Assembly (NCBI RefSeq): GCF_900660745.1
Contig: NZ_LR215048.1
Location: 1,302,001 to 1,366,000, forward strand
Direction of reading: 5' to 3'
Length of the DNA: 64,000 bases
From: Haploplasma axanthum
GTDB taxonomy: Bacteria; Bacillota_I; Bacilli_A; Acholeplasmatales; Acholeplasmataceae
Shown here: positions 16,149-20,750 of the stretch, piece by piece
Layout: each line of letters opens with the position of its first letter
How positions within the stretch are numbered: position 1 is the stretch's first letter
Position numbers and translations under genes: made by a program
The notes under the pieces: model-generated
The model's database searches: none
What the model saw: the letters and a program-made list of their open reading frames with translations, nothing else
Told to the model about the DNA's origin: nothing

Positions 16149-16457
16149 ATGTCTAAAAATAAGAATACATTTTATACAGAAGATATAAAACTTAAAGCAA
16201 TAGAAATGAAAGCTGAGGGTATACCTGTAAAAGTTATAAAGGAAAAGTTAGGTATTAAATCAGATTCTCAAGTCTATACTTGGTGGTATTGGTTTAGGGA
16301 TGGTGAACTAAATAGATTGAAACAACCAATTGGTAAACAGTATAGTTTTGGTCATGGACCTAAACTAACAACAGATGATAAGTTATCACAACTCGAGGCA
16401 CAAAATAAAATACTAAAAAAGTATATAAGTTTGAAGGGAGGATTGATCAAAAAATAG
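16149..16457 (+). CDS. IS3-family transposase OrfA
   Basis: A 102-residue DNA-binding subunit with a helix-turn-helix (VKVIKEKLGIKSDSQVYTWW) and a C-terminal coiled segment (KLSQLEAQNKILKK). GGAGGTG precedes the ATG. At 16415-16421 the slippery heptamer AAAAAAG occurs in the coiled-coil region. A -1 shift there joins OrfA to the orfB frame (reading LKKVYKFEGRIDQK) to give the OrfAB transposase. Confidence 0.9.
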   Translation: MSKNKNTFYTEDIKLKAIEMKAEGIPVKVIKEKLGIKSDSQVYTWWYWFRDGELNRLKQPIGKQYSFGHGPKLTTDDKLSQLEAQNKILKKYISLKGGLIKK

Positions 16458-16489
16458 TCATTGATGTAGTTAATCATTTTAAAGATAAA

Positions 16490-17293
16490 ATGACTAGAAA
16501 GACGATTTTAGATACATTAGGAGTAAGTAAATCAACTTATTATCGCTGGCTAAACAACAAATCAGATAATGTTTTAAGTGATTTAGAATTAGCAATAATT
16601 GAACTTTGTAAGAAAACAAAGTTCAGATATGGTTATAGAAAAATTCACCAACTAATTAACAAAGATTTCAGTGCATCAAAGAATACAGTCCAAAAGTATA
16701 TGCAAAAACATAACTCACAGTGTCGTGTTAAAGTTAAAAAGTATCGTAAAACTGGTGAACCAATAGTTACCGTAGAGAATATAATTAATAGAGATTTCAC
16801 CGCAACAAGACCTTTTGAAAAATTAGTAACAGATATTACATATTTACCGTTTGGTTCAAAAATGCAATATCTATCAAGTATTATCGATGTATATAATGGT
16901 GAGATAGTCGCTTATACAATATCGGACAAACAAAACTTAGATCTGGTGTTTGATACGTTAAATCAATTACCTGAACTAACTGATGATTGTATATTACATA
17001 GTGATCAAGGTTCGGTATACACTTCAGGTCAATATCAATACAAGGTAAAAGAAAAAGGCATCATCATGAGTATGTCCCGAAAGGGAAATCCTGCTGACAA
17101 TGCCTTGATCGAATGTTTTCATGGTAACTTGAAGCATGAAACATTCTATTTAGAACCCCATCTACAAAGTTCTAATGAAATTGTATCACAAACTGTGATA
17201 GAATATATAAAATTTTATAATGAAACTAGAATACAAGCGAAACTTAATTACTTATCACCTATTGATTATAGGTTGATTAATAATTATGTTTAA
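16490..17293 (+). CDS. IS3-family transposase OrfB (integrase domain)
   Basis: A 267-residue DDE catalytic part: first D in LVTDITYLPFG, second in ILHSDQGSVYTS, glutamate in NPADNALIECFHGNLKHE. The frame is open upstream to the A6G site at 16415, so the working enzyme is the -1 frameshift fusion of about 377 residues. Complete, with no internal stops. Confidence 0.92.
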   Translation: MTRKTILDTLGVSKSTYYRWLNNKSDNVLSDLELAIIELCKKTKFRYGYRKIHQLINKDFSASKNTVQKYMQKHNSQCRVKVKKYRKTGEPIVTVENIINRDFTATRPFEKLVTDITYLPFGSKMQYLSSIIDVYNGEIVAYTISDKQNLDLVFDTLNQLPELTDDCILHSDQGSVYTSGQYQYKVKEKGIIMSMSRKGNPADNALIECFHGNLKHETFYLEPHLQSSNEIVSQTVIEYIKFYNETRIQAKLNYLSPIDYRLINNYV

Positions 17294-18429: not shown

Positions 18430-18999
18430 TTATTCCTGCTTTCTATCCTTACTTGGTTTTTTTAAATGAATTAATCCTACAACTAATAAATATAGCCCAG
18501 TTAATACTAGAGCTGCGAATGTCGCAATTTTAATGTTTGAATCAATAAAGTTTTTTGCATAAATCCATGTCCCCATAATTGTGGATACAAAATATGCTAA
18601 AAATCTCCATCCTCGTGCACTTACTTTACCTTCAGTACCTAAGTATAATCCAATTCCACCATCCATAACAAGTGCAATACCAAACCAAAGTGATCCATTA
18701 CCTAAGTTAACGATATTTTCACCAAATAATGGTAAGATAAATCCAAGAATAGCTGCTACTAATAAAATAATGAACTCTGTTGTTCTTAATGTTTTTGATA
18801 ATTTACTTACATTTTTACTTATTTTAGGTAGTACAAATAAAACTGCAAAAACAATTAATCCAACTGCAATAACAATATTTCCAACCGTTGTTGTTAATGA
18901 GAAAACTCCTTTATCTACCATATAAGAAATAAATCCATAAAGTAATAATAATGAACCTAATACAATTGATACCCATGGTACTTTTTTAAATATTTTCAT
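18430..18999 (-). CDS. Uncharacterised membrane protein, DUF308/HdeD-like
   Basis: A 189-residue integral membrane protein with about six hydrophobic segments arranged in pairs (residues about 9-30, 38-58, 72-92, 100-120, 128-147, 157-180), a pattern like DUF308/HdeD proteins. No catalytic motif seen. GAGGGG lies before the ATG at 18999. First gene of a two-gene operon with the M42 peptidase; a TATAAT at 19025-19030 (minus) could serve as its -10. Confidence 0.65.
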   Translation of the reverse strand: MKIFKKVPWVSIVLGSLLLLYGFISYMVDKGVFSLTTTVGNIVIAVGLIVFAVLFVLPKISKNVSKLSKTLRTTEFIILLVAAILGFILPLFGENIVNLGNGSLWFGIALVMDGGIGLYLGTEGKVSARGWRFLAYFVSTIMGTWIYAKNFIDSNIKIATFAALVLTGLYLLVVGLIHLKKPSKDRKQE

Positions 19000-19050: not shown

Positions 19051-19200
19051 AAAAAAAACTTAGGAAGATTGTGAGAACGAATAAATTTAAAGTGGGTATT
19101 TCCTTTTCTATATTTCGGGATTCCAATAAATGGCCTTCACACCTATATAGTTTAAATTCCCGTTCCAAAGCTTTGGGTTCCACTGGTTTCTTCCTAAGGT
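19051..19200 (-). ncRNA. Unassigned structured RNA, about 150 nt
   Basis: Minus strand transcript unit with a promoter (-35 TTGACA 19235-19230, 17 bp, TAAAGT 19212-19207), predicted start near 19200, and an end at T8 (19058-19051). The 5' and 3' ends pair as a 9-bp stem (CUUAGGAAG 19198-19190 with CUUCCUAAG 19067-19059), which doubles as the terminator. Inside is GUGGAAC/GUUC-U-CAC (19183-19177 with 19078-19071), a CCAAAGCUUUGG hairpin, and competing helices CGGGA/UCCCG and CUAUAU/AUAUAG. No open reading frame fits. It does not match SRP RNA, tmRNA, RNase P RNA, T-box or riboswitch cores known to me; a 6S-like rod is possible. Confidence 0.7.
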
Positions 19201-19206
19201 AATATT

Positions 19207-19235
19207 ACTTTATCATTTAGGATTAATTTTGTCAA
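19207..19235 (-). promoter_or_regulatory. Promoter of the structured RNA
   Basis: TTGACA, 17-bp spacer, TAAAGT on the minus strand. It lies between the stop of the 483-residue membrane protein gene and the RNA. Confidence 0.75.
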
Positions 19236-19245
19236 GAATTTTTGC

Positions 19246-20697
19246 TTAATAATACACTGAAATTCTTACATATGATCCTCTATTTATCATTAGTTCTAAT
19301 AATAAATCTCTAACTTTTGATTCAATAATGTAATCAACATTATTGACTCTCATGTCAATTCTAACTGTATAAATATTTTCCATATCTAAATCTGGAATTC
19401 TTGTAACAGAGTATTTATCACTAATATTATTAATATCTTCTAAACTATTAAAATAAGCGACCATACTGATGATAATATTTGACTTTATTTCTAGTTTTTT
19501 TAACAACTCTGCTAAATAAACAGTTCTTGCTATTATATATCCATCATTATGAAAGAAATTTTTTTCATAATTTTGTTTTTCTTTATCCATATCAACATTG
19601 TATGTAACTTGATTTTCAAATAATGATTCCAAGTAATCCGCAAATTTTCCAATTCTTTTTTCATCGTTATAATGGAAATCAGTATATATTGTAACTTCAT
19701 TTTGATTATACGTATATGCAGTAATAAAAAATCTATAAATATCTGCATATACAATAATGTTATGAAATACCTTATTAAAATTATTATTATTAGTTTTAAT
19801 TTTAAAAACAGCATTCAAATAAAATGCATCACTATATACAAACGGTTCAAATAATGCATTAGCATGCACGTGAACTTGTCTATCATTATCATAGTAATAA
19901 TAATCTTCGTAAACAATTCTGCTTCTAAAACTGAAATATTGATAAATTCCTGCAGCAATTCCTAGTATTATTGTTCCAGTTCCTAAAATAACTCCTAGGT
20001 ATTCTGGTTTCACTATAAAATACATTGAATATGCTACTGGTGGGAAAACTGATACAGTTAATAAATTAAGCATTGATTGAAATCCTTTTTTATATAGAAT
20101 AACTGTTAAGAAAACTAAAATGATTACACTATATGAGGTTGCAAAGAATGTATGTATATCAAAATTTTTAAGTAAATTCACTAGATTATTTACTTCTCTA
20201 AGTAATAAAAATACTGCTACCATTGCCATTATTATTGAAATTGCTTGTCGAAGTTTTAAATAACTAGACTTAGTATAAATTTTTCTTGTTTGTGGTAAAT
20301 GGTAATAACTCTTAATTTCCTTACGATATTCATAATATGGTGCATATGATCCTCTTATATGACCAATAATTGATCCTTCTTCTGGAAATCTTTTTTCAAT
20401 TATATTTTCAAAATCTGCTAAAGGATTTAAAACAAATAAAAATGTTCCAATAACGATTAATGCACTATCATATTCTGTAAATAAAACTAATAATATTGCT
20501 AAAAACATTCCGTAAATTAATGAACTAACTAATTTGCCTAATCCACCAAAAACATAAACAAGCACATAAGTTACAAAAATAAGCTCAATCGCAAGAATTA
20601 TTCTTCTTTGATTTAAGCCGCCACTAAAAAAACCAACAAAAAATGTTAGCAACATAATAACTAATGTAATTATTAAGATATTTAGTCTTTTCTTCAT
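19246..20697 (-). CDS. Uncharacterised membrane protein, 483 residues
   Basis: Not recognised. The N-terminal part (residues 1-105) has about four membrane segments including a GLNQRRI loop. A cytosolic linker follows (ENIIEKRFPEEGSIIGHIRG), then a second membrane block (about 155-265) and a soluble C-terminal domain of about 220 residues rich in aromatic beta strands (ARTVYLAELLKKLEIKSNI). The start at 20697 is chosen because GAGAGGTG precedes it; an in-frame ATG at 20745 lies inside the rplT terminator. It follows infC-rpmI-rplT, from which it is separated by that terminator. Confidence 0.7.
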   Translation of the reverse strand: MKKRLNILIITLVIMLLTFFVGFFSGGLNQRRIILAIELIFVTYVLVYVFGGLGKLVSSLIYGMFLAILLVLFTEYDSALIVIGTFLFVLNPLADFENIIEKRFPEEGSIIGHIRGSYAPYYEYRKEIKSYYHLPQTRKIYTKSSYLKLRQAISIIMAMVAVFLLLREVNNLVNLLKNFDIHTFFATSYSVIILVFLTVILYKKGFQSMLNLLTVSVFPPVAYSMYFIVKPEYLGVILGTGTIILGIAAGIYQYFSFRSRIVYEDYYYYDNDRQVHVHANALFEPFVYSDAFYLNAVFKIKTNNNNFNKVFHNIIVYADIYRFFITAYTYNQNEVTIYTDFHYNDEKRIGKFADYLESLFENQVTYNVDMDKEKQNYEKNFFHNDGYIIARTVYLAELLKKLEIKSNIIISMVAYFNSLEDINNISDKYSVTRIPDLDMENIYTVRIDMRVNNVDYIIESKVRDLLLELMINRGSYVRISVYY

Positions 20698-20718
20698 TAT
20701 GCACCTCTCTATATCATT

Positions 20719-20750
20719 ATAAAACAAAAGCGCGGATTTTTCCACGCTTT
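20719..20750 (-). terminator. rplT operon terminator
   Basis: Minus strand stem AAAGCGTGGA/TCCGCGCTTT (one G-U pair), loop AAAA, then TTTTGTTTT. Confidence 0.85.

Follow-up and report, generated by a model that had tools for sequence, protein, structure and literature searches.

The window, that is, the whole stretch of 64,000 nucleotides that was analyzed, carries on its minus strand an RNA gene of about 150 nt (19051-19200), the 5' end of which we placed at about position 19200. Directly upstream lies a promoter (19207-19235, minus strand) formed by a -35 box, TTGACA (19235-19230), and a -10 box, TAAAGT (19212-19207), separated by a 17-bp spacer, with a TG preceding the -10 box. The transcript would end in a U8 tract (19058-19051, minus strand). 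The original prediction had proposed such a 150-nt minus strand unit, with a consensus -35, a 17-bp spacer, a -10 and a U8 end, and these elements are present and conserved: among 21 homologues, TTGAC(A/T) occurs at the -35 position in 18, while a -10-like hexamer and a T-rich terminal tract are kept in all 21. When the 750-base neighbourhood was compared, conservation peaked inside the RNA. These observations point to a stand-alone gene with its own promoter and 3' end, whose boundaries are indicated by conservation.

Upstream of the RNA, the window contains a membrane-like frame of 499 codons (19246-20745, minus strand), as well as genes that, from their sequences, we take to be L20-, L35- and IF3-like. 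Downstream are a second membrane-like frame, of 189 codons (18430-18999, minus strand), and a gene for an M42 peptidase; neither membrane-like frame has a Pfam match. Beside the M42 peptidase gene lies an IS3-type insertion sequence (16149-17293, plus strand) with two frames, a helix-turn-helix frame and an integrase-core frame, the second of which matches Pfam rve, rve_2 and HTH_21.

We also considered that the locus might be coding. A GTG-started frame runs for 50 codons without a stop in the window RNA; it is interrupted in most homologues, and codon periodicity is absent. The coding reading was therefore dropped, and the earlier statement that the unit has no credible reading frame stands.

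A blastn search of 61 genomes revealed clear homologues in about 20, at 71-79% identity; almost all of these genomes belong to the same family. The window's genome has a single copy. We aligned 21 homologues (alignment A1), including one (L028, from genome G034) that is apparently from Acholeplasma laidlawii, and built a covariance model, R1, from this alignment only. R1 scores the window locus at 154 bits and finds matches in 107 of 160 genomes of the order. It also reports a plus-strand match at the window locus (28 bits), which is explained by the long rod being nearly self-complementary. In a pattern search, the named records carrying the motif included A. laidlawii, A. granularum, A. equifetale and Peloplasma aerotolerans.

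Folded as a single sequence, the window RNA yields the closing helix (CUUAGGAAGA/UCUUCCUAAG) and the GUGGAAC/GUUCUCAC helix. Its folding energy is barely better than that of shuffled sequences (z -1.55, with 15 of 200 shuffles equally good), so we did not take it as proof on its own and turned to comparative evidence. Alignment A1 folds into a single rod. With this structure held fixed across the 21 homologues, its 36 pairs are formed in 95.6% of cells and 22 of them show double, compensatory changes; none of 500 shuffles reached either value, and shifting the partners by one to three columns lowered pairing to 29-52%.

The rod consists of a closing stem, a large central bubble and a terminal arm, the architecture of 6S RNA. 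The closing stem comprises P1 (19189-19198 with 19059-19068, minus strand, as are all elements of the rod), where six of ten pairs show compensatory changes, and P2, in which GUGGAA (19178-19183) faces UUCUCAC (19071-19077), with 96% pairing and two compensatory pairs. Covariation thus bears out two helices of the original prediction, the one at the RNA start that is closed by its own 3' end and the long-range GUGGAAC helix with GUUC-U-CAC. The bubble strands are 16 nt each and unpaired in the consensus: the 5' strand (19162-19177) has invariant columns containing CCCAAA, which align with the CCGAC of established 6S RNAs and form the predicted template of a product RNA, and the 3' strand (19078-19093) lies opposite. 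In the terminal arm, P3 (19154-19161 with 19094-19101) has compensatory changes in six of eight pairs and P4 (CUAUAU, 19145-19150, with AUAUAG, 19108-19113) in all six. The apical part, GGUGUGAAGGCC...GGAAUCCC (19117-19143), is the most 6S-like sequence block; it falls within the match to the Rfam 6S family and corresponds to GUGUUGAA.GCC..GGAAUCCUAAA in established 6S RNAs. Two mutually exclusive or pseudoknotted pairings had also been suggested. One of them, CUAUAU/AUAUAG, is P4; covariation of the other, CGGGA/UCCCG, does not exceed that of shuffles, and we discarded it. Similarly, the second half of a proposed small palindromic hairpin, CCAAAGCUUUGG, is not kept in relatives.

A search of the window against Rfam gave no matches at the gathering score. 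At a relaxed threshold, the best match of the 150-letter stretch was the 6S RNA family, RF00013 (20 bits, E 0.046); this lies below the gathering score of 46.4, a curation threshold rather than a biological feature, which homologues from the class outside the order do pass. PreQ1, snoRNA and mir-36 matches at the relaxed threshold had E values of 1 or more and were regarded as chance. With the genome-search pre-filter switched on, RF00013 reported nothing across the window's whole genome; the family model by itself is therefore not enough to prove 6S identity. It exceeded its cut-off in none of 150 genomes of the order. Nine sub-threshold RF00013 matches were found in relatives, and eight of them (in G037, G064, G041, G009, G032, G013, G114 and G141) fall on the R1 locus of the same genome.

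Reciprocal searches tied the R1 loci to the 6S family. Among 346 genomes sampled from the class, R1 matched 118, including 86 outside the order, and RF00013 passed its cut-off in 91 of the same 346. For 43 of the 86 out-of-order genomes a match of both models was listed, and place and strand agreed in 42, with 31 of these 42 loci above the Rfam cut-off; at R1 E values below 1e-5, the agreement was 30 of 30. In the opposite direction, 14 established 6S RNAs above the RF00013 cut-off, taken from other families and with the window's relatives not among them, served to build a model, R2; two of the 14 (L119 and L122), and two more (L105 and L117), are also R1 matches, all selected by RF00013 and not by R1. 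In the window's 1.88-Mb genome, R2 gave one match at E values up to 10, at 1321068-1321182 on the minus strand, inside the RNA (33 bits, E 9.4e-4). Across the 15 genomes tried, its best match fell on the homologous locus in 12, with E below 0.003 in 11 of these. Sequence blocks are also shared with established 6S RNAs: the apical arm carries GGUGUGAA-GCC and GGAAUCC, and CCCAC lies at the bubble. Because the reciprocal models match the same loci, homology settles membership of the 6S family despite the score below the Rfam cut-off. Judged from its sequence, the 150-letter stretch is a real stand-alone RNA gene of this family, unannotated and divergent.

The original prediction had named a rod-like 6S-type regulator and a new sRNA class as its main options, and the reciprocal searches support the former. 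A new structured class, resembling 6S RNA in its rod shape only, could account for scores below the Rfam cut-off across the order and for a bubble reading CCCAAA, not CCGAC. However, the models agree in both directions and the agreement includes the blocks named above, not shape alone; moreover, a second, better RF00013 locus was looked for in the same genomes and none was found. We therefore consider this reading largely refuted and very improbable.

We conclude with high confidence that the locus is a single 6S RNA gene (of the ssrS/bsrA type) of an Acholeplasmatales-like bacterium, transcribed from its own promoter and producing a rod that presumably sequesters polymerase and would be released by product RNA. 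What is new here is only the lineage and the divergence, as the family is known. Like the 6S RNAs SsrS and BsrA, the RNA comes from a stand-alone gene, has the same closing stem, central bubble and terminal arm, and carries the apical GGUGUG.A.GCC / GGAAUCC and CCCAC blocks. It differs from them in several respects: it measures about 150 nt, compared with a usual length of ~180 nt, which is still at the short end of the 150-200 nt range; CCCAAA takes the place of the CCGAC bubble motif; the whole order scores below the Rfam cut-off; the closing stem continues directly into the U-tract; and the 3'-bubble hairpin of many members is missing.

6S RNAs resemble an open promoter and bind the holoenzyme of the primary sigma factor; they come off it once the bubble has been copied into product RNAs about 13 nt long or longer (PMC11077062, PMC8414754). 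By analogy with the family, we expect the RNA described here to sequester sigma-A RNA polymerase until product-RNA synthesis releases it, and to play a role linked to growth phase. Our model has the RNA transcribed from a sigma-A-type promoter of its own and folded into a rod made of the closing stem P1 and P2, the open central bubble and the terminal arm P3 to P6, with the U-tract at its end. As the U-tract follows the closing stem immediately, the two together probably act as a terminator, and folding and termination are probably coupled. By mimicking a melted promoter, the rod would bind the housekeeping sigma-A holoenzyme and so reduce transcription when growth slows. Once nucleotides are back, the polymerase would copy a short product RNA off the 5' bubble strand; the invariant CCCAAA template predicts a product of the form ...UUUGGGUUCC..., which would open the closing stem and free the enzyme. 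The invariant CCC would place a GG at about positions 4-7 of the product, depending on the assumed start, and a GG near positions 4-6 is a hallmark of product RNAs (PMC8414754).

A comparable outline is found in the actinobacterial Ms1 RNA, which is also stand-alone and polymerase-associated but binds core polymerase (PMC11077062). By analogy, the common overall shape would allow the window RNA to work in the same way; the homology, however, is to 6S RNAs of the Bacilli type, whose partner in B. subtilis is the sigma-A holoenzyme (PMC11077062), and the window RNA has no Rfam match to an Ms1-like family. We give this mode of action an even smaller chance than the new class, and retain a 6S RNA that presumably acts on the holoenzyme.

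The surroundings of the gene bear on how it acts. Many relatives encode a homologue of the 499-aa protein upstream of the RNA, and in many the M42 peptidase gene comes next after the RNA; other families of the order have a DEAD-box helicase-like gene in this place, or one for an RsmD-like methyltransferase. In the class, a ThiF-family gene is often adjacent, which is reminiscent of B. subtilis, where bsrA and the ThiF-family gene yrvM are neighbours. The flanks of B. subtilis bsrA are aspS and yrvM (PMC11077062). Four 6S RNAs from other families of the class (L105, L107, L108 and L117) lie just upstream of a ThiF-like gene. That the neighbours vary while the RNA persists favours a trans-acting RNA. 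The RNA might instead act in cis, as a leader or attenuator of the gene downstream; for this one could cite the M42 peptidase gene that directly follows in many relatives, with about 25 nt from the U-tract to the start codon in some. It is the least credible reading and can practically be set aside, since the 18430-18999 gene intervenes in the window's genus, the downstream gene varies among families of the order and class, and the terminator is built with the RNA's own 5' end, with no conserved anti-terminator.

A 6S RNA at this locus fills a gap in the 6S RNA map, in a wall-less order that includes A. laidlawii and in which the standard annotation model misses the RNA. In the titles and abstract openings returned by our literature search, there was no report of a 6S RNA for Mollicutes, Tenericutes, Acholeplasma or Mycoplasma, and the excerpt of PMC8632094 describes none for Acholeplasma. 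The alignment and the model could extend Rfam, and as A. laidlawii is culturable, it offers a way to test what 6S RNA does in a reduced bacterium.

Within the order, the RNA varies in its bubble and in its presence. A switch of the GAAC/GUUC type in the 3' bubble strand is thought to aid release of 6S RNA. About half of the homologues have a GAAC in this strand that could pair with the GUUC of P2; a stable hairpin of this type was not found in the window RNA or its two genus-mates. R1 found nothing better than E 0.1 in genomes of one genus (g7), 0.3-0.9 Mb in size, and a deeper search of 11 of them gave the same result. These genomes (G008, G021, G030, G061, G066, G071 and others) are rich in DUF2963, a phytoplasma family. 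Phytoplasma-like genomes thus seem to lack 6S RNA, apparently through loss. A broader scenario, in which the 6S RNA of this lineage was remodelled so that the closing stem became the terminator, lost the 3'-bubble release hairpin in the window's genus, came to be released differently from what is modelled for E. coli and B. subtilis, and was then dropped from phytoplasma-like genomes, is conceivable, but we consider it unlikely. In another genus (g23), R1 gave weak matches only. One of these (L155, G116:C19:11289-11451; E 9.6e-4) lies upstream of a DEAD-box helicase-like gene and, in a genus otherwise without matches, is probably a further diverged copy of the 6S RNA.
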